From: Bacteroidia bacterium
GTDB taxonomy: Bacteria > Bacteroidota > Bacteroidia > Cytophagales > Cyclobacteriaceae
Length of the DNA stretch: 64,000 nt
Assembly (NCBI GenBank): GCA_030432655.1
Contig: JAUILA010000006.1
Span: 1 to 64,000, forward strand
Direction: 5' to 3'
The notes beneath the pieces are model-generated. The model had not been told where the DNA came from and made no database searches. It saw only the letters and a list, made by a program, of their open reading frames with translations. Positions 1-22,542 of the stretch are shown here, one piece after another; position 1 is the stretch's first letter; the number at the start of each line of letters is the position of its first letter. Position numbers and translations under genes: made by a program.

Positions 1-128
1 TGGCTTCCAGGGCAACGGTTGCCTTAAATTTTGCACTGAATTTTCTTCTGGATCGTCTCATAGGTTTATTAAAGTTAAAGGTTAATTTTTAACTTACCCT
101 ATGGTCCGGATTTCGGGGAGTATTATAA
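1..128. other. Window edge, no gene resolved
   Basis: Two forward frames stay open for about 28 codons from the edge and then stop near 85-95. Neither resembles Rhs core or a known family. An in-frame TAA at 126-128 separates this stretch from the Rhs tip that follows. It may be the end of an upstream gene. Confidence 0.3.
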
Positions 129-1353: not shown

Positions 1354-1419
1354 CCTTAATGAAGGTTTAATGCAATATTGATTAGAAGTAGGACTAGCCC
1401 AATCAACCAAACAAAAATT

Positions 1420-2424
1420 ATGAATAAGCTCTCGCTCGGCGTCCTTACTTTACGGTGTATTTTGTTGTTTCTTTTCACCTGCAGCGTAGTGAAGGCAGAG
1501 TCAGCGGAAGAGTATGGTGTGGTGAGTGATGCGCAGGAACTGGCCGCTTTGGAGGCGTTTTATAATACCACGGGTGGATCAAACTGGACGAATGACTATG
1601 GCTGGCCATCGGACTGGAGCACGGTCAGTTCGGTTAGTGCATTAACCGGCGCGTTTGGCCTTACAATCCAGAACGGGGATGTGACCCATATAGACATGCC
1701 GGGCAATAATCTTTCGGGTACTGTTCCCTCCTCGATTGCTGATTTGAGCGCGCTGTATTATTTGCAGCTGAGTAATAATTCGCTGTCGGGCAGCCTTCCG
1801 GATGTATTTGGTTCACTAACTTCTATGGCCTATTGTTTTTTAGATCAGAATGGGTTTAGTGGAAGTATTCCAGCCTCATTTGGGAGCAGCTCCGCTCTCG
1901 TGATGCTTTACCTGCATAGTAATTCCTTTACGGGTACCATCCCTTCACAACTAGGGAATTTGACAAGTATAGAGCGTCTTTTTCTTTACGATAACAGTCT
2001 GACAGGCAACTTGCCGGAAGCGCTGTTGTCCAATACTTCTCTTCAGCAATTAGATGTGGCGGTTGATCAGTTGTCCGGGAATTTATCTGCTTCGGTGGAT
2101 GGACTTACCAGTCTAGATAAACTGAATATATCGGAGAATAATTTTTCAGGAATGCTGCCCGATGAGTTAGGATATCTTAATAACCTCCTGTCTCTGAATC
2201 TTTCTTATAATAATTTTAGCGGGGTACTTCCATCTTCTTTAGGGGAATTATCTTCACTTAAATACTGCTACCTGGCCTACAATAATTTTCAAGGGGTTAT
2301 TCCATCTAATTTAAGCAGCCTTGCCTCTCTTATCCAGTTTTTTGTAAATGACAACGCTCTTGGGGGTAGCATTCCTTCTTTTTTTACAAATCTTGACAAC
2401 ATTACCTACCTGCGGTTTCAGTGA
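1420..2424 (+). CDS. Secreted LRR protein, N-terminal part of the interrupted LRR-Rhs protein
   Basis: The start is ATG 1420. It gives a clear Sec signal peptide (MNKLSLG..., hydrophobic core, VVKAES). An LRR N-cap follows (LAALEAFYNTTGGSNWTN), then about nine plant-type leucine-rich repeats of the form LxxLxLxxNxLSGxIPxxLGxL up to residue 334. The reading frame stops at TGA 2422-2424 but continues open in the same frame through 6474. The corresponding place in the second LRR module has GGG, giving RFQGNQFTSF against RFQ-stop-NGFTSF here. It therefore appears to be the N-terminal fifth of one larger secreted protein, either truncated by a nonsense mutation or read through. The LRR fan probably mediates surface or partner binding. 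Confidence 0.8.
   Translation: MNKLSLGVLTLRCILLFLFTCSVVKAESAEEYGVVSDAQELAALEAFYNTTGGSNWTNDYGWPSDWSTVSSVSALTGAFGLTIQNGDVTHIDMPGNNLSGTVPSSIADLSALYYLQLSNNSLSGSLPDVFGSLTSMAYCFLDQNGFSGSIPASFGSSSALVMLYLHSNSFTGTIPSQLGNLTSIERLFLYDNSLTGNLPEALLSNTSLQQLDVAVDQLSGNLSASVDGLTSLDKLNISENNFSGMLPDELGYLNNLLSLNLSYNNFSGVLPSSLGELSSLKYCYLAYNNFQGVIPSNLSSLASLIQFFVNDNALGGSIPSFFTNLDNITYLRFQ
2422..2424 (+). other. In-frame TGA interrupting the LRR-Rhs reading frame
   Basis: The TGA lies between CAG and AAT. The paralogous LRR module encodes Gly at the same alignment position, so one substitution (GGA to TGA) would create the stop. Codons on both sides remain homologous to the second module and no shift of frame is involved. 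Sequencing error, a recent nonsense mutation, or readthrough are all possible. Confidence 0.8.
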
Positions 2425-2454
2425 AATGGCTTCACTTCATTTCCCAATTTCAAC

Positions 2455-5400
2455 GTGCATTCAAATCCAGGCCAGCTAACTGTTAATATTTCAGGGAACC
2501 ATATTCCGCAAGCTGACATAGATGCCAATATTATAAATGGCCAGCCAATTTTTAATTCTTTCACTTACTCCAATCAAACAACAGCCCCGACGAGTGAAGG
2601 AGATGTGCCGGATGTGGCGGAGTTGGCCATCCTTGAAAGTTTGTATGCTGCCGCGGGTGGTAGTAGCTGGACCAATAAGACAGGCTGGCCTTCGGACTGG
2701 ACTACGGTTAATAGCGTGGATGACTTAATTGGTGTCTATGGGTTAACGATATCCAATCATGATGTGACCCATATTGATATGCCAGGCAACAACTTGTCTG
2801 GGACCCTGCCTGATAATTTAGGCGATTTGCAGGACTTATATTATTTGCAGTTGAATAATAATAGCCTGTCAGGGGCACTTCCCAGTTCCCTGGGATCTAT
2901 GGGTAAACTTCAATATGTACAATTACAGAATAATGGGTTTTCAGGCGGGCTTCCTGGCGAAATAGGCAATGCGCCCTTATTGAAGTTTCTATACCTGCAG
3001 AGTAATGATTTCTCTGGAAGCATTCCGGAAGGGTTCGGCAATCTGGGATCTATAGAGCGATTGTTTTTACAAGACAATTCCCTGTCTGGATCAATCCCAC
3101 CACAACTTTACCAATTGCCTACACTTAAGCAACTGGATTTAGCGGTCAATAGCCTGACCGGAACATTATCATCGGATATGGCCAACCTGATTAGCCTGGA
3201 TAAGTTTGTGGTTTCCCAGAATGATTTAACTGGAGAGATACCATCCCAGATAGGTGCACTGGTCAACTTAAAAACGTTAGACCTTTCCTACAACAATCTA
3301 TCAGGACCCCTTCCCGGTTCGATAGGCAGTTTATCGAAGCTGGAATATATGTTCTTAGGCGCCAATGCGTTCACCGGCCAGATCCCTTCCGCGTTTAGCA
3401 ACCTTACCTCCGTCCGCTATTTTTATGTAGAATTTAATGGCTTAGATGGAGCGATTCCTGACTTTATTACAAGTTATTCCGATGTGGTTTCCTTTCGTTT
3501 CCAGGGGAATCAATTTACGAGTTTTCCTGATTTTACTACCCATCCGGATGCGGGTCTGATGTATGTGAATATATCCTCCAACAAGATATATTCATCGTTT
3601 GTCGATCAGAATATTGATAGCGGCCAGCCCGTATTTGCCACCTACATTTATAATAATCAGTCTCCTGAAACAACTTTAGCCAAGCCTGATGGCCTGCAGG
3701 TGGATGAGTGGACAGAGCAGTCCATTACCCTGAGTTGGACTGATATTGATGGGGCATCCGGTTATTTGCTGGAGCGGTCTACCACAAGCGGTACGGGATT
3801 TACCCAAGTTGCTGAGGTTTCTGCCAATACTACGAGTCATACGGATGAAGGACTTCAATCCGACCAGGAATATTATTACCGGTTAATGGCCGAAGGCGGA
3901 GATCAACTCACTTCCATGTATTCTGATGAAGTACAGGGCAAGACATCGGCCTCACTCACTACTTCTACCCAATTAGCTCAACATGTAAAATTTAATGGCC
4001 AGCTTACCTCGGTACATTGGAAGCGATATGGCGATGAGCATGAGAAAGTGTATACCTATGAGTATGATGAGGTGAACCGCCTTGTTGGTGCAAATTACTC
4101 GGAAGGCGAAAAGGTGGCGGGCGCATGGATCAGTGTACACTCCGGAGGCTATAGTGTGCACAATTTGAGTTACGATCATAACGGTAATATTCAGACGTTG
4201 ACCCGCCAACAGCAAGGGAAAGGCGGGGTAGAGGTGATGGATCATTTGACCTATGCGTATTCGGGCAACCAGCTTACCGGGGTGGCGGATGGCGGGTTGC
4301 CTGCCGGATTCTACGATGGGAATATTAATGGGACTGATTATACCTACGATGAAAACGGAAATTTGATCTCGGATGCCAATGCGGATATAATAAGTATTGA
4401 ATACAACGAGATTAATCTTCCAAAACGAATTGAAAAGACAACAGGGGAGGTCATTGAATACGGGTATGACGCTGCAGGGGTAAAGTTGTATGAAATTCAC
4501 TATGATGCTCAAAATGAAGTAGTGGGCCGCAAGGATTATATCGGTGAATTCATTTTCGAAGACAGCGTGCTGAAGTTAATCCATCATGAAGAGGGCCGTA
4601 TAGTACCTGATCCGGTAGATCCTGGGTATGTGTATGAATATGATCTAAAAGACCATCTGGGCAATAACCGGGTGACAGTAAGCAGCAAACCCGTGTTGCT
4701 GGATTTTGAGTTATTCTTCGAGGAGTATTCAGCCAATCCGGACGTGGTATTCTTTGAAAACGTACATCCGGTGATCACCAACAACTTAATGGATCATACC
4801 GATGCAGGCAATCTGTATACCCATTCGTTGATGCTGGATGGCGCTGAGGGGCGACGGGTAGGAGCGATCATCAGTCTTCCGGTGGCAAAGGGAGATGTTA
4901 TATCTGCGGATGTATTTGCCAAATACATTAACCCGACAAGCACCACCCGCGGGGTGGTAACTTCTTTGGCTACTACCCTGATTAACGGCTACCTGGGTAC
5001 TACGGGGATCTCAAATGAGTTCATGAGCCAGACCATCTCAAGTAACTATACAGGGCAGGACGGCTCCCTGATAGGTACTACGGGCTTCCAGGCAGATGAA
5101 ACGTCTCCCAAAGGGTTTATTAATCTATTGTTTTTACCCACAAATAAAAGTATCTCCCTGGATGGACAGACTTTTGCCTATGATCAGATTGATGACAGCT
5201 ACGAGCAGCCAATCGGTAGTGCCGTAAACGAAGACTGGGATGAGCTAAGCGTGAATTTTGAAGCTCCGGAAGAAGGGTATGTGATCATTTACTTGAGTAA
5301 TGAAGGGACCGACCTGGTCAATGTGCACTTTGATGACTTGAATATTACGATAGACCAGCAACAGGTAAAACAAAAAGACGATTATTATCCCTATGGCCGG

Positions 5401-6474
5401 GCATTCAATTCATTCTACAGGCCGGGGCTTTCCAAAAACGATTTTCTCTTCCAGGGAAAAGAACTACTTGCCGGGACTACATTCTATGATTTTCATGCCC
5501 GGCCCTTTGATCCATTCCTGGGAAGGTTTGTGTTAATTGATCCTCAAGCGCACTTAATGCTTGACAACTCCCCATATGTTGGGCTGATGAATAGTCCGGT
5601 AATGTATGTTGATCCAGATGGGGAGCTTCCATTCTTGGCTTTGTTAGCAATTGGAGCAACTGTATTTGGTACCACAAACGTGGCCGTGCAAGCAGCTAAT
5701 GGAGAGATTGACAATATTTGGGACGGATTGGAAGCCTTTGGTAGTGGAGCAGTAGCAGGTGCGGCAATTACGGCCGGGGTGACTACAGGTCTCGGAGTAC
5801 CTATTTTAGGAACTGTAATTAAGGGAGCTGGCATAGTTTATGGTGGGTCTTTGGCTGTCGGCACGCTTAGTGGACTTGGAGATGGTATTTTCAATGGTGA
5901 TTGGGATAGATTAAAAAATACAGGGAAACTATTTACAGGCAATTTTTATCTAGATGGTAACCGTAATTTCTTAGGGCAGACACTTCAAGGTATTGGACGC
6001 TTTAGCTGGGAGTTGCCACAAACAACGATTGGGCACAGCGTTTCACAGATTAGGAATTCTTTTGGTGGTACTGATAGGGTAGATTATTTTGGAGGAGCTA
6101 CCTTTTCAACTGCTGAAAATCAAGAGACAAGGAATGGTGTAAGTATCGGTAATTTTATTAATTTAAATCTCAGAGATGAAATTACTGGAAGTTTTGAGGA
6201 TAGAGTAATAAGTGATCCTATTTTTATGCATGAGTATGGACACACTTTTGATAGCCAGATCTTCGGATCGTTTTATCTTCCAATTGTTGGACTGCCAAGT
6301 CTTATCAGTGCAGCTTCGTCTAGACCTCTTAATGGTGGCATATCGACCCATAGTATTAGGTGGTATGAAAGAAATGCTAACAAACATGCTGCAAGATACT
6401 TTGGCAAACATTACGGGGTTGATTGGCTTAATTATGAGCCCCCTCGCGGAAGATATCCAAGAAGGCGACCTTAA
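2455..6474 (+). CDS. LRR-FnIII-Rhs repeat protein with C-terminal HEYGH metallopeptidase-like tip
   Basis: Read from GTG 2455, the first start after the TGA, this is 1339 residues. Without the upstream part it has no signal peptide, so the frame probably belongs to one protein starting at 1420. Domains in order: a second LRR N-cap and repeats (about residues 52-400), a fibronectin type III domain (405-500), YD/Rhs repeats (505-725, e.g. YTYDENGNL), the phylum-typical DHLGNNRV hinge near 732, an inserted beta-rich region (745-970), the Rhs core end (DDYYPYGRAF, YDFHARPFDPFLGRF, YVDPDGE), a Gly/Ala-rich membrane-like linker, and a C-terminal tip. The tip holds HEYGH at 1259-1263 and WYERNANKHAARYFG, whose Glu 1305 lies 46 residues from the first His. 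This is the polymorphic-toxin layout. Target and secretion route are unknown. Confidence 0.85.
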   Translation: MHSNPGQLTVNISGNHIPQADIDANIINGQPIFNSFTYSNQTTAPTSEGDVPDVAELAILESLYAAAGGSSWTNKTGWPSDWTTVNSVDDLIGVYGLTISNHDVTHIDMPGNNLSGTLPDNLGDLQDLYYLQLNNNSLSGALPSSLGSMGKLQYVQLQNNGFSGGLPGEIGNAPLLKFLYLQSNDFSGSIPEGFGNLGSIERLFLQDNSLSGSIPPQLYQLPTLKQLDLAVNSLTGTLSSDMANLISLDKFVVSQNDLTGEIPSQIGALVNLKTLDLSYNNLSGPLPGSIGSLSKLEYMFLGANAFTGQIPSAFSNLTSVRYFYVEFNGLDGAIPDFITSYSDVVSFRFQGNQFTSFPDFTTHPDAGLMYVNISSNKIYSSFVDQNIDSGQPVFATYIYNNQSPETTLAKPDGLQVDEWTEQSITLSWTDIDGASGYLLERSTTSGTGFTQVAEVSANTTSHTDEGLQSDQEYYYRLMAEGGDQLTSMYSDEVQGKTSASLTTSTQLAQHVKFNGQLTSVHWKRYGDEHEKVYTYEYDEVNRLVGANYSEGEKVAGAWISVHSGGYSVHNLSYDHNGNIQTLTRQQQGKGGVEVMDHLTYAYSGNQLTGVADGGLPAGFYDGNINGTDYTYDENGNLISDANADIISIEYNEINLPKRIEKTTGEVIEYGYDAAGVKLYEIHYDAQNEVVGRKDYIGEFIFEDSVLKLIHHEEGRIVPDPVDPGYVYEYDLKDHLGNNRVTVSSKPVLLDFELFFEEYSANPDVVFFENVHPVITNNLMDHTDAGNLYTHSLMLDGAEGRRVGAIISLPVAKGDVISADVFAKYINPTSTTRGVVTSLATTLINGYLGTTGISNEFMSQTISSNYTGQDGSLIGTTGFQADETSPKGFINLLFLPTNKSISLDGQTFAYDQIDDSYEQPIGSAVNEDWDELSVNFEAPEEGYVIIYLSNEGTDLVNVHFDDLNITIDQQQVKQKDDYYPYGRAFNSFYRPGLSKNDFLFQGKELLAGTTFYDFHARPFDPFLGRFVLIDPQAHLMLDNSPYVGLMNSPVMYVDPDGELPFLALLAIGATVFGTTNVAVQAANGEIDNIWDGLEAFGSGAVAGAAITAGVTTGLGVPILGTVIKGAGIVYGGSLAVGTLSGLGDGIFNGDWDRLKNTGKLFTGNFYLDGNRNFLGQTLQGIGRFSWELPQTTIGHSVSQIRNSFGGTDRVDYFGGATFSTAENQETRNGVSIGNFINLNLRDEITGSFEDRVISDPIFMHEYGHTFDSQIFGSFYLPIVGLPSLISAASSRPLNGGISTHSIRWYERNANKHAARYFGKHYGVDWLNYEPPRGRYPRRRP

Positions 6475-6486
6475 ATATAAAACCAA

Positions 6487-6951
6487 ATGAAAAATTTATG
6501 TTATTTAATGTCTATAATCTTGGTTGTATTATCTATTAGTTGTAAAGATGATAGGTTTCCAAAAGCTTCCATTACTTTAATAAACAAATCTGATACAGAT
6601 ATTAATTATTATTTTGCTTTTGGAGGCAAAGGAGGCATATTGTATCCTGATACGACATTACCATCAGAACTAACTCCACCTTTTCCAGAAGCTCGAAAGG
6701 GTCATTCTGGTTATTATGATTGTAATTGTACGGAAGAAGAGATTTTTGAATATATTCCATCAGACACTTTATCACTATATATTTTTCACCCCGATACCTT
6801 GTCCAAATATTCATGGGATCAAGTTCGAAATGATTATAACTTTCTAAAGCGCTATGATTTAAGCTTAGGCGATTTACTTCGATTAGACTTTGAAGTGACT
6901 TATCCGCCGGATACGAGTATGGAAGGGGTGAAGATGTATCCACCCGAATAA
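6487..6951 (+). CDS. Small lipoprotein, candidate immunity partner of the HEYGH tip
   Basis: It starts 12 bases after the Rhs stop. The 154-residue product has a lipoprotein signal peptide (MKNLCYLMSIILVVLSISC, lipobox ISC). It matches the lipoprotein at 680-1147 in layout: TLINKSDTDINYY early, a central segment with several Cys (CNCTEEE), and a C-terminal stretch LSKYSWDQVRNDYNFLKRYD. Similar SW(E/D)xxR.DY..LKRYDL sequences occur in small uncharacterised proteins of Bacteroidota (recalled, not searched). The repeated pairing with an HEYGH tip supports an immunity or chaperone role in the envelope. Confidence 0.75.
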   Translation: MKNLCYLMSIILVVLSISCKDDRFPKASITLINKSDTDINYYFAFGGKGGILYPDTTLPSELTPPFPEARKGHSGYYDCNCTEEEIFEYIPSDTLSLYIFHPDTLSKYSWDQVRNDYNFLKRYDLSLGDLLRLDFEVTYPPDTSMEGVKMYPPE

Positions 6952-7018
6952 GATCCAAGACTCTTGCCAGGATAAAAGGATTTCTGATGTAGAGGTAAGT
7001 TGGCCAATAGCGTATTAG

Positions 7019-7781
7019 GTTAATCCATCATGAAGAGAGACGTATAGTACCTGATCCGGTAGATCCTGGGTATGTGAATGAGTATGATCTAAAAGACCAT
7101 CTGGGCAATAACCGGGTGACAATAAGCAGCAAACCCGTGTTGCTGGATTTCGACTTATTCTTCGAGGAGTATTCAGCCAATCCGGACGTGGTATTCTTTG
7201 AAAATGTACATCCGGTGATCACCAACAACTTAATGGATCATACCGATGCAGGCAATCTGTATACCCATTCGTTGATGCTGGATGGCGCTAAGGGGCGACG
7301 AGTAGGTGCCATCATCAGTCTTCCGGAGACAAAGGGAGATGTAATAACCGCTGATGTATTTACAAAATACATTAACCCGACAAGCGCCACCCGTGGGGTG
7401 GTAACTTCTGTGGCCACCACCCTGATTAATGGCTACCTGGGTACCATGGGGGTCTCAAATGAGTTCATGAGCCAGACTATCTCAAGTATCTATACCAGGC
7501 AGGACGGTTCCCTGATAGGCACTGGCTTCCAGGTAGATGAAACGTCTACCAAAGGGTTTATTAATCTATAATTCTTACCCACAAACAAAAGCATCTCCCT
7601 GGACGGACAGACATTTGCCTACGATCAGATTGATGACAGCTACGAGCAGCCTATCGGTAGTGCGGTAAATGAAGATTGGGATGAGCTAAGCGTGAATTTT
7701 GAAGCTCCGGAAGAAAGGTATGTAATTATTTAATTAAGTAATGAAGGGACTGACCTGGTCAATGAGCACTTTGATGATCTT
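7019..7781 (+). pseudogene. Decayed duplicate of part of the Rhs core
   Basis: This stretch is a near-identical copy of 4577-5337 in the large Rhs gene, beginning in the sequence before the DHLGNNRV hinge and ending in the inserted beta-rich region. It carries nonsense changes relative to the parent: CTA-TAA where the parent has CTA-TTG (stop at 7569-7571) and ATT-TAA where the parent has ATT-TAC. It also has a 3-base deletion and scattered substitutions. No start or end of a gene is present. Such displaced core fragments downstream of immunity genes are typical of Rhs loci and are substrates for swapping tips by recombination. Confidence 0.85.
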
Positions 7782-7897
7782 AGGCATATCGCAGTTGCAT
7801 CGGAGTGCTGAATTAGTCAAAAGTTACATCAAATGTTTAAACCATGTTTAAACCAAGAGAAATTAACTAATCGATTGACCTCTGACATATTTGTACA

Positions 7898-7947
7898 GAA
7901 AAAATTAAGAAACACAAAATACAGCCAATGGAACTGTATTTTGTGTT
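7898..7947 (-). terminator. Rho-independent terminator of the tRNA-Leu unit
   Basis: A perfect 14-bp stem (7911-7924 with 7934-7947) closes a 9-base loop, followed on the minus strand by a T-rich run at 7907-7898. It starts one base beyond the tRNA-Leu discriminator position, as expected for a native tRNA terminator. Confidence 0.85.
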
Positions 7948-7948
7948 G

Positions 7949-8002
7949 TACCCGGAGCGGGGGTCGAACCCGCACCGCCGCAATGGCGACAGGATTTTAA
8001 GT
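7949..8002 (-). tRNA. 3' half of tRNA-Leu(TAA), truncated at the anticodon loop
   Basis: On the minus strand the sequence runs from the anticodon loop (CTTAAAA) through the 3' anticodon stem, a long class-II variable arm, the T-arm (GCGGG-TTCGACC-CCCGC) and the acceptor 3' strand TCCGGGT plus discriminator A. CCA is not encoded. The 5' half is absent: upstream is integrase coding sequence. The anticodon TAA (7999-7997) is also the integrase stop codon. This is an attachment-site remnant, not a working tRNA. Confidence 0.85.
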
Positions 8003-9265
8003 GCTGTCGGATCTAATAATCTTTTCATTAGCCTCATCAAGTACTGCATCATTAAATCCTTTGAGATAAACCTCGGTGGTATCAAGAGAATGGTGGCCTA
8101 ATGATTCACTGATCACTTCGATGGGAATCCCTAAATATTTGGCGGTTGTGGCCCAGGTATGCCGAATGGTATAAGTGGTTAATTTTTCTTGTATGCCGGC
8201 GTCTTTCCCCATAATGGCGAGACGCTCGTTCATTCGTCGACGCAATGTTCTGTATTTCTCCATATGCTTGGTGGTGCCATCATAATTGGCCGGGAAAAGA
8301 TAGGCATCTTTGACTTTGCCTGAAGTATAGTAATTCAAGATAACTTGTAGCTCTGTGGTGATTTTAACTGAAAGAAGGGATCCCGTCTTACTTCGGCCAT
8401 AATAAATACGTCCAGATCGGAGATTGGATATTTTGAGCTGAACAAGGTCCATGAAATTCATGCCCCGGCAATAAAACATGATAAGTGCATAATTGCGCGC
8501 ATGCCAGATGGCCGTTCCTTCATCATATTTTAGATCACGCAATCTTAACATTTCCTCTTTAGTAATGGCCCGTTTCCGGGTACGGGTGGTCGATGGTACT
8601 TTGAAATGATGGAATGGATATTTGACCATGAACAACCGGTCTTCTTTCATGGCCGAATTGTATAAGGCGCGGACAGCTCTGAGATAATTACTAACTGTGT
8701 TTTGTGAATTCCCTTTCGCCTGCTGATGATGGAGAAATCCGTTGAGATCACTTACCTTTAATTGAGCCATGGGTATATCTTCTTTTTGTAAAAATTGCAG
8801 CAAGGCCACTACTCCTTCCTCGTACCAGCGGGCGGACAGCGGTTTGTTCAATTCATTTTTACGTTTTATCTGGATAGCCAACCAGCTTTTCAAGGACAAG
8901 CTATTTTTGGCCATGTTTTCATAGAGCTCCTTGCTGGCCCCGGATAATTTTATATTGATGTAATGCACCAGTTCATCCACATCAAAGGGTCTCATTTCCT
9001 GGAGCAATTCTGAGAATGCCTCCCTGGCTTGGTGGAGTTTCTTATGCAGTTGAAGGTTTATTTTATTACAGGGCTGATCCCGGTTGGATTTAGCCGATTT
9101 CAATAACCTTCCTTCCGAAGCTTGCCAACCGGCCTTTGAAGTATGATAAGGAAGCCGGATTAGCCGCTTCTTTTTATGAAATACACGAAGTACAATAGGA
9201 TAAGTATCCGAAGTTTTGAGGTAGGAGGCTTTACGTGTATCAAGTGCAAGGGTTATCTTAGTCAT
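7997..9265 (-). CDS. Tyrosine recombinase / integrase
   Basis: I take ATG 9265 (MTKITLALDTRKA). A start at 9316 would run through the upstream hairpin repeats. The 422-residue product has an N-terminal Arm DNA-binding domain, a SAM-like core-binding domain (about 95-210) and a C-terminal catalytic domain. Visible catalytic residues are Arg in CRGMN, the YTIRHTWAT box with Arg (the first position is Tyr, as in many Bacteroidota integrases), LGHH, and the nucleophile Tyr in TTEVYLK. It resembles integrases of conjugative transposons and islands. Its last codons and stop lie in the tRNA-Leu crossover sequence, so its C-terminus depends on the integration event. No excisionase or cargo gene accompanies it in this short stretch. 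Confidence 0.9.
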   Translation of the reverse strand: MTKITLALDTRKASYLKTSDTYPIVLRVFHKKKRLIRLPYHTSKAGWQASEGRLLKSAKSNRDQPCNKINLQLHKKLHQAREAFSELLQEMRPFDVDELVHYINIKLSGASKELYENMAKNSLSLKSWLAIQIKRKNELNKPLSARWYEEGVVALLQFLQKEDIPMAQLKVSDLNGFLHHQQAKGNSQNTVSNYLRAVRALYNSAMKEDRLFMVKYPFHHFKVPSTTRTRKRAITKEEMLRLRDLKYDEGTAIWHARNYALIMFYCRGMNFMDLVQLKISNLRSGRIYYGRSKTGSLLSVKITTELQVILNYYTSGKVKDAYLFPANYDGTTKHMEKYRTLRRRMNERLAIMGKDAGIQEKLTTYTIRHTWATTAKYLGIPIEVISESLGHHSLDTTEVYLKGFNDAVLDEANEKIIRSDST

Positions 9266-9277
9266 AGTTGAATTTAC

Positions 9278-9319
9278 AAAAAAGTGGGCAGAAAATCCTG
9301 CCCACTTTCTGCCCACTTT
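9278..9319 (-). repeat. Three copies of an 11-bp repeat forming a hairpin in the integrase leader
   Basis: CTGCCCACTTT occurs at 9298-9308 and 9309-9319, and its exact reverse complement at 9281-9291. The inner pair makes an 11-bp stem with a 6-base loop, followed on the minus strand by six T, 13-18 bases before the integrase start. It could be a leader terminator controlling integrase, or arm-type recombinase sites. Confidence 0.6.
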
Positions 9320-9432
9320 TTCAAGTTTGAATAGACTTAAACGGTTATAAAAACAGCGCTAATTTGATCCAAATGTAGGTTTGTGATCTGTATGAGCATT
9401 TCATGAATTGTTACAAAACAGTCATTTTAAAA

Positions 9433-9476
9433 CTTACAAGCAGGGGGTCGCTGGTTCGAATCCAGCAGGGCCCACC
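9433..9476 (+). tRNA. 3' half of tRNA-Val(TAC), truncated at the anticodon loop
   Basis: The sequence runs from the anticodon loop CTTACAA through stem GCAGG, variable loop, T-arm GCTGG-TTCGAAT-CCAGC, acceptor AGGGCCC, discriminator A and CC. The matching 5' half (expected CCTGC anticodon stem and GGGCCCT acceptor) is not upstream. It is truncated at the same point as the tRNA-Leu fragment, within a shared ACTTA sequence. Confidence 0.85.
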
Positions 9477-9510
9477 TTCGCCCTTCGAAGCTTTAGCACA
9501 GAAGGGAATA

Positions 9511-9546
9511 CCCTGTGATCATTTAACGATGGTCACAGGGTTTTTT
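9511..9546 (+). terminator. Rho-independent terminator behind the tRNA-Val fragment
   Basis: The stem CCCTGTGA/TCACAGGG (9511-9518 with 9533-9540) is followed by six T. This is probably the native terminator of the interrupted tRNA-Val gene. Confidence 0.8.
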
Positions 9547-9562
9547 ATTTTCCTGGGCTTCG

Positions 9563-9584
9563 GTGGGCGCAGCCCACTTTTTTT
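9563..9584 (+). terminator. Second, tandem terminator-like hairpin
   Basis: GTGGGC-GCA-GCCCAC is followed by seven T. It is a short, strong stem just behind the previous terminator. Confidence 0.6.
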
Positions 9585-9971
9585 CTTTGCCAGCTTGTCC
9601 ATTGTTGAGGGGGCACTATACAGGATTGCCTGGACTGCGACAATAGACAAACAATCACCTACCATTGTAAGTGCTTTTTCTTTTGTGCACAGTTTGTGCA
9701 CACTTTTCTTTTTTATCTCAATTTTCTACGGGATACTCGAAGTGCACATCCCTTTCAAAAGCCACAAGTGTCTTTTGTTTTGTGACTACCAGCTGGACGA
9801 TGTAGAAAAGAAATGGGGGAAGGATATTTCAGATATGGGATAAAGACTCTGCCTGTGGGCTCGAATGGCAAGGGACTGTAATTATATTTTCACTAATTGG
9901 CATAACAACTTTTCTAATTTCACAACTAAGTACGAGCGTCTTCGTATATTAACGAAGCTAATCCTTCTCCT
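9585..9971. other. Gene-free stretch before the permease
   Basis: A weak open frame spans the tRNA fragment and continues to 9843, but its composition is not protein-like. I see no RNA gene or repeat. The promoter of the permease at 9972 presumably lies in the AT-rich part at 9890-9965. Confidence 0.5.
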
Positions 9972-12386
9972 ATGCTTCAGAACATTCTCAAGCTCACCTT
10001 CCGGAACCTGTACCGCAACAAGCTGTACACGTCGATCAATGTATTCGGACTGGCCATCGGGCTCACCGTGTTTCTTACTGTCCTGGCCTACGTCCGCCAT
10101 GAATCCAATTACAACCAGGAGGTGTCGGATCACCAGCGGATCTTCCGGCTGTATACCGAATTCAACGGGGTCTTTACGGGGACAAACCGCGGTATCAGTA
10201 CCGGTATCCCGACTTTTATCCGGGAGAATATTGCTTCTGTCGAAGAGGTAGCACAGTTTTATTCCTGGGGTGCCAACACTAAAATTCCGATGGGTGATGG
10301 CAGCCTGAAGGACATGGACCGCCAGGGCGCTTTGGTCGTTACCGGCCCGGAGCTTTTCCGTGTGATCGACATCTGGGAGTGGGAAGCGGGCAGCCTGGAA
10401 TCGATGAACAAATCACAGTCGGTAGCATTGCTGCGTTCGCAGGCAGAAAAATATTTTGGTGCTTTGCCCTCCGCCGAATACCTGGGCCGGGAAATCGTCT
10501 ACCAGGATTCGTTGCAGCTGGAGGTCGTGGGAATTCTCAGCGATCCGGAAGTGAAGACCGACTTTTTATTTACCGACTTTATATCAACAGCTTCCGCGAA
10601 GGCCTCCTTTCTTAAAAGTCGCTTTAACGACGATAACTGGGATGGCACCAGTTCGTCAAATCAGGCATTTATCAAATTCAATAAAGAGCCGGCCACTTCC
10701 GATATTAATTTTGTTGTGGAGCAAGTCAATGAGGAACGGGCATCCCGAAATGAAGGGGATACATTCATTGCAAATTACGTGGCCCAGCCCCTGGCCGAAC
10801 TTCATTACAATTCTGAATTGGGGGTTTTTGATGGCGTGTCCCACGCGGCAGACCGTGACGTTCTGCGCAATGTCCTGCTGATAGCATTGGCGATTCTGGT
10901 TCTGGCCATTGTTAACTTTATTAACCTGGAAACGGCCATTGGAGGAAAACGCGGGCGTGAAATTGGCATCCGTAAAGTGTTCGGAAGCCACCGTTTCACT
11001 GTTATTCTCCAGTTCCTGGTCCAAAGCACCCTGATGGCCTTTTCGGCAATCATCCTGGCGGTGCCGCTGACGAAGCTGGGGATCAACCTGTTCAGCGAAT
11101 TTCTGCCTGACGGAATGTCGTTCAATCCATTCGCCATTGATAATGTGCTGCTGCTGCTGGCGGTCGGATTCTCCGTCGGACTGCTGGCAGGCTTTTATCC
11201 TGCACTGGTGATGTCTTCATTCAGTCCGGTCAGGGTGCTGAAAACCCAGATGACCACAGGTACCGGAGGAAGCAGGTTTCTGCGCAAAGGACTTACCCTG
11301 TTCCAGTTTACCTTCTCCCAGGTGCTGCTCATATTTACCTTTGTGGTATTTAATCAGATTGATTTTATGATCAATAAAGACCTGGGATTTGAAACGGAGA
11401 ATATCCTGATCTTTGACACTCCTTATTATATGGAATCTTCCAGGGCCGACGTACTTCAACAACAACTGAACGGCATAAGCGGAATAGATGAAATGGTCCG
11501 TTTTGGAAGTGCTCCAATAGAGAACGGCTGGAGTTCCAGTATCTTCGACGTTGTCGGTGAGGACGGATCGAAATCCCAGCTGGAGGTTTTCATAAAATAC
11601 GGTGACTCTACCTACACCGATTTTTTCGGTATAAAGCAATTGAGTGGAAGGAAATTGCGCAATGAAAAGGAAATTCTCATAAACCGTACATTCATGAAAG
11701 AAATGGGGTACAGTAATCCGATCGACGTGCTGGATGTTATGGTAGACCCCGATGATGATTCGCTGATCGTGGCGGGGGTGGTGGAAGATTTTCACTTCCG
11801 GTCCCTTCACAATGAAATCAAGCCCATGGCCATCCGTCTTGAACCGGGAGGCACTTTCGGGATTATGCTGGAGGAGCAGGCTGATCCTGAACCGCTCATC
11901 GGTCAAATAACCGACGTCTACAAAGAGGTATACCCAGATGTGGCATTCAATCACCAGTTTTATCAAAACTCTATTGAGAATTATTACGAGTCAGAAAAAC
12001 GCACGTCCAAACTGATCATCGCTGCTGCCTTCATTGCCTTGCTGATTTCGTGCATGGGACTGTTTGGCCTCTCTTCCTATATGGCTATTCAGCGTATAAA
12101 AGAGATAGGCATCCGGAAGGTCCAGGGGGCAACGGTTGGGAATATCGTTCAGCTGCTTACCCTGGATTTCCTTAAGCTGGTCGGACTGGCTGTGCTGATT
12201 GCTATACCGCTTGCCTGGTGGGCCGGCAATACATGGATGGAAAGTTTTGCCTACCGGGCACCATTTAATATTTCGCTGTATGTATTAGCTGCGGTAATTG
12301 CCCTCGCCATTGCTTTTCTGACCATAGGTTATCATGCCTTAACAGCCGCGCGAACAAATCCGGTTATCAGCCTGAGAAGCGAGTAA
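9972..12386 (+). CDS. MacB/FtsX-type ABC transporter permease
   Basis: The 804-residue product has the duplicated FtsX layout common in Bacteroidota. TM1 at about 21-42 follows the typical NLYRNKLYTSINVFGLAIGL start. A MacB-like periplasmic domain (about 50-270) follows, then an FtsX block with TMs near 295, 345 and 395, a second TM and periplasmic domain (about 430-660), and a second FtsX block (about 675-800). GREIGIRKVFGS and IKEIGIRKVQGA are the characteristic post-TM motifs in the two halves. Such proteins act with an ATPase to couple ATP hydrolysis to work in the periplasm, such as lipoprotein or peptide export. No ATPase gene is adjacent, so its partner must be elsewhere. Confidence 0.93.
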   Translation: MLQNILKLTFRNLYRNKLYTSINVFGLAIGLTVFLTVLAYVRHESNYNQEVSDHQRIFRLYTEFNGVFTGTNRGISTGIPTFIRENIASVEEVAQFYSWGANTKIPMGDGSLKDMDRQGALVVTGPELFRVIDIWEWEAGSLESMNKSQSVALLRSQAEKYFGALPSAEYLGREIVYQDSLQLEVVGILSDPEVKTDFLFTDFISTASAKASFLKSRFNDDNWDGTSSSNQAFIKFNKEPATSDINFVVEQVNEERASRNEGDTFIANYVAQPLAELHYNSELGVFDGVSHAADRDVLRNVLLIALAILVLAIVNFINLETAIGGKRGREIGIRKVFGSHRFTVILQFLVQSTLMAFSAIILAVPLTKLGINLFSEFLPDGMSFNPFAIDNVLLLLAVGFSVGLLAGFYPALVMSSFSPVRVLKTQMTTGTGGSRFLRKGLTLFQFTFSQVLLIFTFVVFNQIDFMINKDLGFETENILIFDTPYYMESSRADVLQQQLNGISGIDEMVRFGSAPIENGWSSSIFDVVGEDGSKSQLEVFIKYGDSTYTDFFGIKQLSGRKLRNEKEILINRTFMKEMGYSNPIDVLDVMVDPDDDSLIVAGVVEDFHFRSLHNEIKPMAIRLEPGGTFGIMLEEQADPEPLIGQITDVYKEVYPDVAFNHQFYQNSIENYYESEKRTSKLIIAAAFIALLISCMGLFGLSSYMAIQRIKEIGIRKVQGATVGNIVQLLTLDFLKLVGLAVLIAIPLAWWAGNTWMESFAYRAPFNISLYVLAAVIALAIAFLTIGYHALTAARTNPVISLRSE

Positions 12387-13704: not shown

Positions 13705-14965
13705 ACACACGAAGGAGTTGCTCATTAAAGCGGCAGAGGAAAAATTGGGTCGCGGTCGCGGTGCGGAGTGGTCCAATCATGACTTTGAGCTACTGTCAGA
13801 GGATATTTTCCGCCGTACCGGAAAACAGCTGAGCGTGTCAACACTCAAAAGGTTGTGGAACAGGACAAGTACCAGGAACCGGGCGAGCGTTAGTACCCTG
13901 AATATACTGGCAGAGTACGCCGGATTTGAGGACTGGCGAAAATTCTGCCTCACCCGGGAGCCTGTAACGCGTAAGCCTTCTGTCCGCCGGCTTAAGCGGT
14001 ATCTATGGCCGGTGATATTAGGAATGGCTGCATTCGGACTTTACAGCTTTTATCAATTGAATGACAGGAACCCGCAGGTTATTCCGGATAATGAACAAAT
14101 TCTCTTTTCACTTAAGAAGATTACAGAGGGGTATCCGAATACGGTAATCTTTGAATACGATGTCGGCGACCTGTCCTTTGACTCGCTGGCGATCCAACAG
14201 TCCTGGGACAAATCGAGGCGAATTGACCTTGAAAAATCTAAGGGGCTGGTCACCTCGACCTATTACTACCCGGGTTATTTTCTGGCGAAGCTGGTGGTAA
14301 ATGACCAGATTATTAGGGAGAAAGACTTATACATACCTACCCACGGCTGGCAGGGCATGGTCGATGACAGCAATGGAGATATCCGGTACCTCGATGAGAA
14401 AATACAGTTTTCTCCGGGATCAATTCGATTTGATTCAGCAACAATCGGTAACCCGGTGAAGGGAGATGAATTTGCCCTTGTCAACCTGTTGCCTGAGCCG
14501 GTCATTGACAGCCGCAATTTTAAGCTGAAGGTACGTTATTTGACGGGCTCTGCAGCGGAACACAGTGTTTGCAAATTTACGGCCCTGGTAATCACCGGCA
14601 CCAGGGAGGTGATCGCTTTTCAGCAGTCTAAAAAGGGGTGTGTTGGAGATCTCAGTGCCTTTATAAATAAGGATATGATCAGTGGCAGGGACACAGACCT
14701 GTCGGGACTGGCGCTGACTGACGAAGGATACGCCGAAGTGGAACTTGAAGTGAAGGATTTACAGCTCACGATCAAGGTGAACGGCCAGCTTGCTTTCACT
14801 CATCAGATGAAAGAGGATATTGGTCTTATCGGCGGAGTACAGTGGTATACCGAAGACCCGGGAGAGATCAGCCAGTTGATAATCTCGGATAAAAATCATC
14901 AATGGGATTTGTTGCTGGACCCGAATTTCGAAAATTCTGTGAACCTGCTCTCCGGGGATCAATAG
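13691..14965 (+). CDS. Membrane-anchored protein with N-terminal HTH-like domain and extracytoplasmic LamG-like domain
   Basis: The 424-residue product begins with a cytoplasmic helical domain (about 1-95) whose sequence TGKQLSVSTLKRLWNRT and STLNILAEYAGFEDWRKF is a recurrent Bacteroidota N-terminal module resembling an HTH regulator. A basic stretch and one TM follow (about 105-122, LWPVILGMAAFGLYSFY). The remaining 300 residues would be periplasmic and are beta-rich, with a LamG-like repeat near the end (VKVNGQLAF). It may be a one-component sensor that binds ligand outside and DNA inside, perhaps controlling the divergent LamG protein. That role is inferred. Confidence 0.6.
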   Translation: MTVQSHTKELLIKAAEEKLGRGRGAEWSNHDFELLSEDIFRRTGKQLSVSTLKRLWNRTSTRNRASVSTLNILAEYAGFEDWRKFCLTREPVTRKPSVRRLKRYLWPVILGMAAFGLYSFYQLNDRNPQVIPDNEQILFSLKKITEGYPNTVIFEYDVGDLSFDSLAIQQSWDKSRRIDLEKSKGLVTSTYYYPGYFLAKLVVNDQIIREKDLYIPTHGWQGMVDDSNGDIRYLDEKIQFSPGSIRFDSATIGNPVKGDEFALVNLLPEPVIDSRNFKLKVRYLTGSAAEHSVCKFTALVITGTREVIAFQQSKKGCVGDLSAFINKDMISGRDTDLSGLALTDEGYAEVELEVKDLQLTIKVNGQLAFTHQMKEDIGLIGGVQWYTEDPGEISQLIISDKNHQWDLLLDPNFENSVNLLSGDQ

Positions 14966-20922: not shown

Positions 20923-22542
20923 ATGAATAGATTAATCTTAATCCTGCTGCTGATTTTCCCTGCAACCTGTAGCTTTTCCCAGGTCCTGAGTGATTCCATC
21001 AAATCAGAAATAGACAAGCTTGTCACCCGCGATGTGCCGGAAGATGCCCCGGGGGTGGCCTTTGGAATGGTGCAAAATGGCAAAACGGTTTACGTTCAAT
21101 ATGCTGGGTATGCCGATCTGGACGATTCGTTGAAAATCGGACCGACAACACGTTTTAACATTGCTTCCAACGGCAAGCAGTTTACGGCTTTGGCTGTTTT
21201 ACTGCTTATACAGGATGGGAAACTTAGTCTTGATGATGATATCCGGACATATTTTCCCGAACTACTCCCAGGCATTAAGGAGCCGATTCAAATCAGGCAT
21301 CTGCTCACGCATACCAGCGGAATCCGTGATTTTTATGACCTGCTGAGTCTGCAAAATGTAACGTGGTGGAAACAGACAATGGATAATCAGGACGTTTTGG
21401 AAATACTTGAAAAACAACATGACCTGAATTTTCCTCCGGGGTCAGCCTACCTGTATTCCAATTCCAATTACGTATTGCTGGCGGAGATTATCAGCCAGGT
21501 AAGTGGACAGGCTTTTGCTGAATTTACCAGCCAGATGTTCCGGAGAATGGGGATGAATGATACCCGGTTTGAGCCGGACAATACGAATATTGAGGGGCCG
21601 ATCGCCCGGCCGTATTTCAATTTCAATACATGGACGGGTTACGATTGGGTATGGAATGTAGTTGGTGATGGCAACCTGTTTACCACCCTCCGTGACCTGC
21701 TTCATTTTGAAGAAATTATCCAGGCCGGAAATTCTGATTTTCCTGGTGAATCAGTGATTTATCGATCGCAGAAATTGATCATGAAGGATATTCAATACGG
21801 GTACGGCCTGGAATTTTCGGAATATTCAGGACGATCCATGGTTTTTCATCATGGGGCCACCGGTGCCTGGAAGGCGACGTTCATGAGGTTTCCTGACATT
21901 TCACTCATTACGTTAAGCAACAGCGGCAAGACGATTGTGACCGATCAGAACCAGCAAATAGCAGACCTGGTGCTGCGACGTGATGCTGGGTCAAAGGACA
22001 AATACCTGATTGCCCCTGAACAGGAAGGGCCCTATATCGACTCCCTCCGGCTCCCGGGGGTATACCAGGATGCGGGCGGCACCACATTTCAGTTTGTTCA
22101 GAAACCGGATGGTTTGTATTTGGTGAGGCTCGGCAGAAATGACGTGAAGCTCGAACGTGAAAATAATAACGTATTTCATCAGCTGTATGATCCGGATTTC
22201 AAACAGGAATTTCTCGTTTCGGAGAATGGACAACTCACGGTGACTGCCTATTACCCTACCCATCCGCCCTATACACTTACCCGGATTGACAGCGATCTGA
22301 GTGCATTTAATCCTGAATCGATTGAAGGCGACTACTATAATAACGAAACGGATATAAACATATCAGTAAGTTTATTGGAGAATGAAACGTATGAAATCAG
22401 TCTGGGCGACCGTAAGACAACTGGCTTACTGATTACAAGAAATAAAATGCTGGTGGATTACTATACATTTAATTTTACTGACGACTCCATTTTATTGGAC
22501 GGAGAGCGGATAAAGCAAGTTCAGTTTGACAAATCAAATTAA
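20923..22542 (+). CDS. Exported beta-lactamase-family serine hydrolase
   Basis: The 539-residue product has a signal peptide (LLLIFPATCSFSQ). The class C/penicillin-binding fold is visible from the SxxK motif (Ser 82-Lys 85, in IASNGKQFTALAV), the YxN box in the YLYSNSNYVL segment, and a late HxG motif (FHHGATGAWK). The C-terminal 150 residues form a beta-barrel-like lipocalin-type extension seen in many such esterases. Likely a periplasmic esterase, peptidase or amidase, not necessarily a drug-resistance enzyme. Confidence 0.9.
   Translation: MNRLILILLLIFPATCSFSQVLSDSIKSEIDKLVTRDVPEDAPGVAFGMVQNGKTVYVQYAGYADLDDSLKIGPTTRFNIASNGKQFTALAVLLLIQDGKLSLDDDIRTYFPELLPGIKEPIQIRHLLTHTSGIRDFYDLLSLQNVTWWKQTMDNQDVLEILEKQHDLNFPPGSAYLYSNSNYVLLAEIISQVSGQAFAEFTSQMFRRMGMNDTRFEPDNTNIEGPIARPYFNFNTWTGYDWVWNVVGDGNLFTTLRDLLHFEEIIQAGNSDFPGESVIYRSQKLIMKDIQYGYGLEFSEYSGRSMVFHHGATGAWKATFMRFPDISLITLSNSGKTIVTDQNQQIADLVLRRDAGSKDKYLIAPEQEGPYIDSLRLPGVYQDAGGTTFQFVQKPDGLYLVRLGRNDVKLERENNNVFHQLYDPDFKQEFLVSENGQLTVTAYYPTHPPYTLTRIDSDLSAFNPESIEGDYYNNETDINISVSLLENETYEISLGDRKTTGLLITRNKMLVDYYTFNFTDDSILLDGERIKQVQFDKSN

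Follow-up and report, generated by a model that had tools for sequence, protein, structure and literature searches.

The integrase gene described here was located between the outward-facing 3′ halves of two different tRNA genes, tRNA-Leu(TAA) and tRNA-Val(TAC). The most likely reading of the locus is a two-element mosaic rather than the work of one recombinase using two tRNAs. With moderate confidence, we interpreted it as the right end of an ICE-like island in tRNA-Val, to which the left end of a tRNA-Leu element was fused by site-specific recombination in an ancestor. The source was a 4.95-Mb draft genome of 50 contigs, and the window, which is the whole stretch of DNA analyzed, comprised positions 1–64,000 of contig C43 (189,964 bases).

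Integrase Gene and Its Junctions

The tyrosine recombinase gene occupied positions 7997–9316 on the minus strand as an open reading frame from GTG. It matched Phage_integrase and Phage_int_SAM_5, and a match to Arm-DNA-bind_5 fell just under its cut-off. As the start codon, an ATG at about 9265 was likelier than the listed GTG. ARAGORN found no complete tRNA in the window, and none of the five RNA family matches within 7001–10,500 reached the gathering score.

The sequence-only reading had described an integrase between two outward-facing halves of different tRNAs, and both the coordinates and the matches to intact tRNAs confirmed this arrangement. The intact genes were found elsewhere in the genome, tRNA-Leu(TAA) at 6623–6708 of contig C6 and tRNA-Val(TAC) at 22,148–22,223 of contig C14. 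The tRNA-Leu half (7949–8001, minus strand) had 64 bp from the anticodon loop onward in common with its intact counterpart, and the tRNA-Val half (9433–9476, plus strand), the attR of the island, matched exactly over 43 bp. The terminators reported behind both halves were also present as hairpins, and they are probable terminators: one at 7911–7947 on the minus strand (inverted repeat 7911–7924/7934–7947), the other at 9507–9544 on the plus strand (9507–9522/9529–9544).

Both halves began with the opening base of the 7-nt anticodon loop. Exact identity with the intact tRNA-Val started at CTTACAA, and that with tRNA-Leu at CTTAAAA plus one preceding A, which was missing from a second copy on contig C34. 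The proposal of a shared ACTTA at the cut held for CTTA (loop positions 32–35) and failed for the leading A, which lay outside the tRNA-Val repeat. The integrase stop codon TAA (7997–7999) was at the same time the anticodon of the Leu half, and the flank before the Leu core in the window, CAGCA, resembled the tRNA-Leu 5′ stem CAGGA.

The Island in tRNA-Val

Beside the integrase start, there were arm-type repeats TTTCTGCCCACTTT in inverted and direct copies (9279–9322, plus strand), and the same repeats were found behind the intact tRNA-Val on C14, where TTTCTGCCCAGTTTCTGCCCACTTTT followed the tRNA. The two loci had in common the 43-bp repeat and the TTTCTGCCCAC arm repeats. Since the Val half had a partner on C14 with both the repeat and matching arm repeats, the outer island appears to be a standard one, and the idea that the Val half is an unmatched fragment was ruled out. 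For Val, the matching copy of the tRNA end, previously taken to be missing, therefore existed, while the suggestion that two elements were joined seems to hold.

Domains detected in positions 1–22,148 of C14 were Relaxase, NikA-like/MobC, T4SS coupling protein, TraG P-loop, TraM and DUF4138. Genes for a relaxase, a coupling protein and the mating pore were all on this contig (PF03432, PF02534, PF19044, PF12508, and PF13595), which indicated that the island is ICE-like. C14 and C43 were not contiguous in the assembly; only the tRNA repeat and the shared arm repeats connected them, and from these we infer that they are the two ends of one island. Part of the island between them was unassembled, and C43 opened with the right end of an insertion sequence (1–127, plus strand; terminal inverted repeat GGGGAGTATTATA), whose 127 bp were identical to the start of C34. 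When contigs C46 and C9 were tried as left neighbors of C43, their 3-bp flanks (CTT and TGT) did not match AGG; no island genes were noticed by eye among the open reading frames of C46. The island cargo at 1378–7571 (plus strand) consisted of large LRR/RHS-type proteins. On visual inspection, the RHS tail was repeated in a shorter form at 7074–7571, and these proteins are possible polymorphic-toxin cargo.

Several observations concerned such elements more widely. A possible remnant of an older Val-type left end, with GTAAGTGCTTTTT and GTGCACAGTTTGTGCACACTTT repeats, was located at 9665–9715 (plus strand), and another possible older left end past a displaced tRNA half was at position 14,549 of locus L014, as though the same tRNA had served earlier elements. 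A conserved motif of ~50–55 bp (GCAAGATGTGTTTTTTGATTCAAAAAACGAAAAT..CGGCGC) was found just upstream of the mobC/relaxase genes on C14. It recurred in Pro, Leu, and Val(GAC) elements (L015, 2119–2172; L013, 5949–6004; L014, 11,705–11,757; L017, 13,853–13,908), and it is a candidate for a shared oriT; among the open reading frames listed for the Pro and Leu elements, no relaxase was noticed. In this genome, elements of this integrase kind appeared to occupy at least nine tRNA genes, with the displaced half beside the integrase start (contigs C6, C14/C43, C34/C39, C40, C43, C45, C47, C48, and C49).

The Probable Element End at the tRNA-Leu Half

The Leu half is not a boundary of the Val island. 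Together with its terminator and its own arm repeats, it has the appearance of the left end of an element specific for tRNA-Leu. Behind the terminator, tandem 11-bp arm-type repeats GGTTTAAACATGGTTTAAACAT of a Leu-type left end were located at 7833–7854 on the minus strand. Contig C6 carried a complete Leu element of 7.6 kb between the intact tRNA (6623–6708) and a fragment starting at 14,323, with GGTTAAACATAGGTTAAACA near both ends and GTTTAAACATGGTTTAAACA beyond the fragment. The arms of the window's Leu end resembled GGTTAAACATAGGTTAAACA and the repeat past the C6 fragment, and were unlike those of the adjacent integrase. Because arm repeats vary between integrases, the Leu repeats pointed to a different integrase.

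It had been proposed that a single recombinase used both tRNA sites. The arm repeats at the Leu end (GTTTAAACATGG) and on the integrase side (CTGCCCACTTT) were unlike each other, so that a recombinase with two tRNA targets was not supported. Action of one integrase on both tRNAs through the shared CTTA was rejected for the same reason, and also because the bases preceding the Val and Pro cores (TTTTAAAA) differed from those preceding the Leu core.

The Leu-type ends looked like mosaics of terminator and arm types. Neither a complete second element nor a right end or integrase of Leu type turned up beside the Leu half of the window on the stretches fetched, and this counts against a nested insertion; the right end and integrase of an inserted Leu element may have been lost. 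Nor was a second pair of Leu-type arms found on the fetched parts of C34, C14, and C43.

A Second Copy in the Same Genome

A second composite locus had the order Pro(TGG) half, integrase, Leu half. The Pro half and the integrase start were on C39, the integrase end and the Leu half were on C34, and the break was inside the homologous integrase. At the break, the insertion-sequence ends TATAATACTCCCC and GGGGAGTATTATA were flanked by TAC on both sides. Three left insertion-sequence ends were found (C39, C46, and C9), of which only that of C39 matched C34 in the three flanking bases; the matching ends suggest that C39 and C34 join. An intact tRNA-Pro was located at 7316–7391 of C34, and the arm repeats there matched those on C39. 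The integrase of the Pro element appeared to be interrupted by an insertion sequence with 13-bp inverted repeats (L016, 8809; L013, 127), so the Pro element may be unable to move alone.

The integrases of the window and the second copy shared 76% protein identity and 76% nucleotide identity over 1088 bp, and they were saturated at synonymous sites (pS 0.845; 0.75 for the last 40 codons). Beginning at the Leu core, identical columns numbered 60 of 60, 93 of 100, and 46 of 60 in succession, a jump at the crossover. As the Leu ends were more alike than the integrases and the change fell at the crossover, separate or refreshed joining events, or strong constraint, are suggested. The 3′ end of the C34 integrase (GAAAACG|CTTAAAA) was unlike the tRNA-Leu 5′ stem, which counts against the explanation that we favor.

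Recurrence among Related Integrase Loci

We surveyed 83 non-duplicate integrase loci, each with at least 150 bp behind the stop codon. The sample comprised nine loci of this genome, 13 of 17 named loci (three duplicates and one lacking sequence were dropped), L032, and further loci and stretches. An outward tRNA half upstream of the integrase was detected in 65 loci, and no upstream half was detected in the other 18. L118 and L119, against the layout rule, had an intact tRNA-Asn upstream that read towards the integrase.

Within 260 bp behind the stop codon, the plus strand contained nine T-arm motifs in eight of the 83 loci (two in L130), and from 260 to 1500 bp (97.7 kb) it contained none. 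On the opposite strand, the single match within 260 bp was an intact tRNA (L125), and two matches were found at 260–1500 bp (97.7 kb). It is very unlikely that tRNA halves stand behind integrases by chance. Visual inspection led us to reject the detector match in L099. In all, 8 of 83 loci were thus counted as having another outward half close to the integrase stop, seven by the detector and L137 by eye. L137, missed by the pattern because of its short T-loop, was noticed among 20 printed flanks, and others may have been missed.

The second halves were of the Leu type in the window and C34, Thr in L032, Asn in L044, and fMet in L116, L130, L137, and L140, with a further Leu half in L130; fragment types were read by eye, and the halves with CTCATAA/CCCG are those that we take to be of the initiator-Met type. 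Six of these loci belonged to other genomes. On a tree of 85 sequences, the seven detector loci (without L137) needed six changes. By manual count, the second halves began from 4 nt before the end of the stop codon to about 62 nt behind it. In the window, C34, L116, L130, L137, and L140 they started at the anticodon loop, as judged against the intact tRNA-Leu or, for the fMet ones, against the stem expected for tRNA-fMet. The tRNA-fMet stem presumably ends in GG, as did the left flanks in L130, L116, and L137 and not that in L140.

Between the upstream half and the first integrase codons, a tandem repeat with a period of 11 or 12 was present in 57 of 69 loci, some of them near-duplicates; the mean in shuffled sequences was 0.65 of 69. 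In all four elements checked, these repeats were matched behind the intact tRNA, and they are probably arm-type integrase sites. The arm repeats after the second half (window, C34, twice in L130, and L140) differed from those of the adjacent integrase, and none were found there in L032, L044, and L116. Three of the nine second halves were damaged (L032 and L044 in the T-stem, L137 in the T-loop), against no mismatches in the 71 upstream T-arms detected by a detector that tolerates one mismatch only and leaves worse damage unseen. No full second element was found behind any surveyed integrase, short stretches having been read for most loci.

One pair of loci differed by the presence of the second half. 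The nearest relative of L130 in the tree was L112 (87% identity over 1425 bp), and the two agreed, a small indel aside, through 18 nt past the integrase stop (AAGATTAATAAGGCTCAT). There, L130 continued into the fMet half (AACCCG...) and L112 into TTACCCAC and other sequence, so that they diverged inside the fMet loop CTCATAA. Such a break is what insertion by an fMet-type integrase at a tRNA-like secondary site behind the integrase gene could have left. GGCTCAT occurred once in the 4.2-kb L112 locus. The whole fMet arm had no good ungapped match in L112, the best (9/14) being elsewhere in the locus, which counts against this interpretation, and L112 itself could be derived from an occupied site. 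This was the sole empty-site pair, and it is not a Leu case; neither for the window nor for C34 was an empty site found.

In L159 (5412–7227), two fMet halves of inverted orientation enclosed an integrase together with a His half and its arms. Upstream of the integrase were the inverted fMet half and the His half with its arms; the downstream fMet half adjoined genes read by eye as sdh. Given these genes, the L159 element may border the chromosome there, and the composite could have used the second site.

In a wider search, the Leu module matched 136 of 390 family genomes at E ≤ 1e-6 (two candidates scored per genome). Among the matches listed outside the source genome, all fell within query positions 125–195, that is, the tRNA half (130–182) plus at most 13 nt. 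With four candidates scored per genome, the order search at E ≤ 1e-70 matched the source genome only, of 390, and the class search matched the source genome and one other, of 395. Viral contigs gave five pattern matches with no relative among them, and 120 plasmid and 57 phage records were all below 60% identity.

Origin of the Composite Locus

The following course of events is probable. The window integrase would have inserted the ICE-like island into tRNA-Val(TAC), crossing over in the anticodon loop. A second element, one that targets tRNA-Leu(TAA), would have recombined in an ancestor, through its own integrase, with a sequence resembling tRNA-Leu where the Val integrase gene has its 3′ end. 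The Leu left end, consisting of the 3′ half, terminator, and arm repeats, would thereby have been fused to the integrase stop codon, and the remainder of the Leu element would then have been lost. We infer that the direction was insertion rather than loss, which recombinase acted, and that the remaining parts of the Leu element disappeared.

Other explanations were also considered. The Leu half might be a working second attachment site, giving access to tRNA-Val through the element's own integrase or to tRNA-Leu through a helper Leu integrase such as that on C6. Here, the Leu half and its arms have stayed intact in both copies despite integrases saturated at silent sites, C6 harbors a Leu element with similar arms, and in L159 the fMet half behind the integrase is followed by the sdh-like genes. 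A second pair of Leu-type arms was nevertheless missing from the fetched contig parts, and the second halves were damaged more often than the detected upstream T-arms, within the one-mismatch tolerance of the detector; we regard a working site as unlikely. An exchange of modules, in which homologous or illegitimate recombination placed an integrase module on a Leu-element backbone and left the old half as a scar, seems improbable. A stretch of 1225 bp, 95% identical between the Pro element and the Leu element on C6, did run almost to the end of one gene, and the mosaic look of Leu-type ends would fit such exchange. Against it, the second half started at the anticodon loop in six loci, and the break between L130 and L112 was itself within the loop.

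The draft state of the assembly, the 127-bp overlap of contig ends, and the repeated insertion sequences raised the question of a misassembled or chimeric contig. The Leu junction recurred in the diverged copy in this genome and the layout in six loci elsewhere, and neither junction was at a contig end; misassembly is therefore highly improbable. A more speculative and rather doubtful idea is that the sequence behind the integrase is a maintained landing pad. It would mimic a tRNA anticodon arm, capture elements that target that tRNA, and switch or widen the target of the composite, with the TAA of the tRNA serving as the integrase stop. The fusion of a Leu-element end to the Val island remains the explanation that we prefer.

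Comparison with Known Elements and Significance

Among the papers listed in literature searches, and in the material consulted from PMC5495485, PMC9897764, and PMC5704250, there was no description of an integrase flanked by the halves of two different tRNAs. The Val side resembled the tRNA-integrated islands mapped by Islander (PMC4383910), with an intact tRNA at one end, a fragment of the same tRNA at the other and a tyrosine integrase between them. Unlike those islands, it contained an additional half from another tRNA, joined to the stop codon of the integrase.

According to PMC5704250, NBU1 inserts into the 3′ end of tRNA-Leu and uses secondary sites at low frequency, IMEs insert in ICE genes, and tandem accretion stacks ICEs, IMEs, and CIMEs at a shared att site. 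The locus resembled the Bacteroidota ICEs and IMEs treated there (CTnDOT and NBU1) in the conjugation gene set on C14, in elements that target tRNA-Leu, and in the recorded use of secondary sites. The difference is that the apparent secondary site here was behind the integrase of another element and recurred there. In tandem accretion as outlined in the same paper, elements are likewise stacked by site-specific recombination, whereas here the Leu and Val halves belonged to different tRNAs, faced outward, and had no common target tRNA. PMC5495485 describes inversions by the pTN3 integrase of Thermococcus, which are likewise integrase-linked rearrangements ending in tRNA genes, and reports that tRNA-Leu and tRNA-Thr gave no recombination product in vitro; in contrast, the two tRNAs here are explained by two different elements.

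The finding points to a recurring route by which tRNA-targeting elements of different specificity are joined at the 3′ end of an integrase gene, apparently by an integrase. A tRNA half next to an integrase need not mark the end of the element to which that integrase belongs. These joins also make it testable how integrative elements change their tRNA target.
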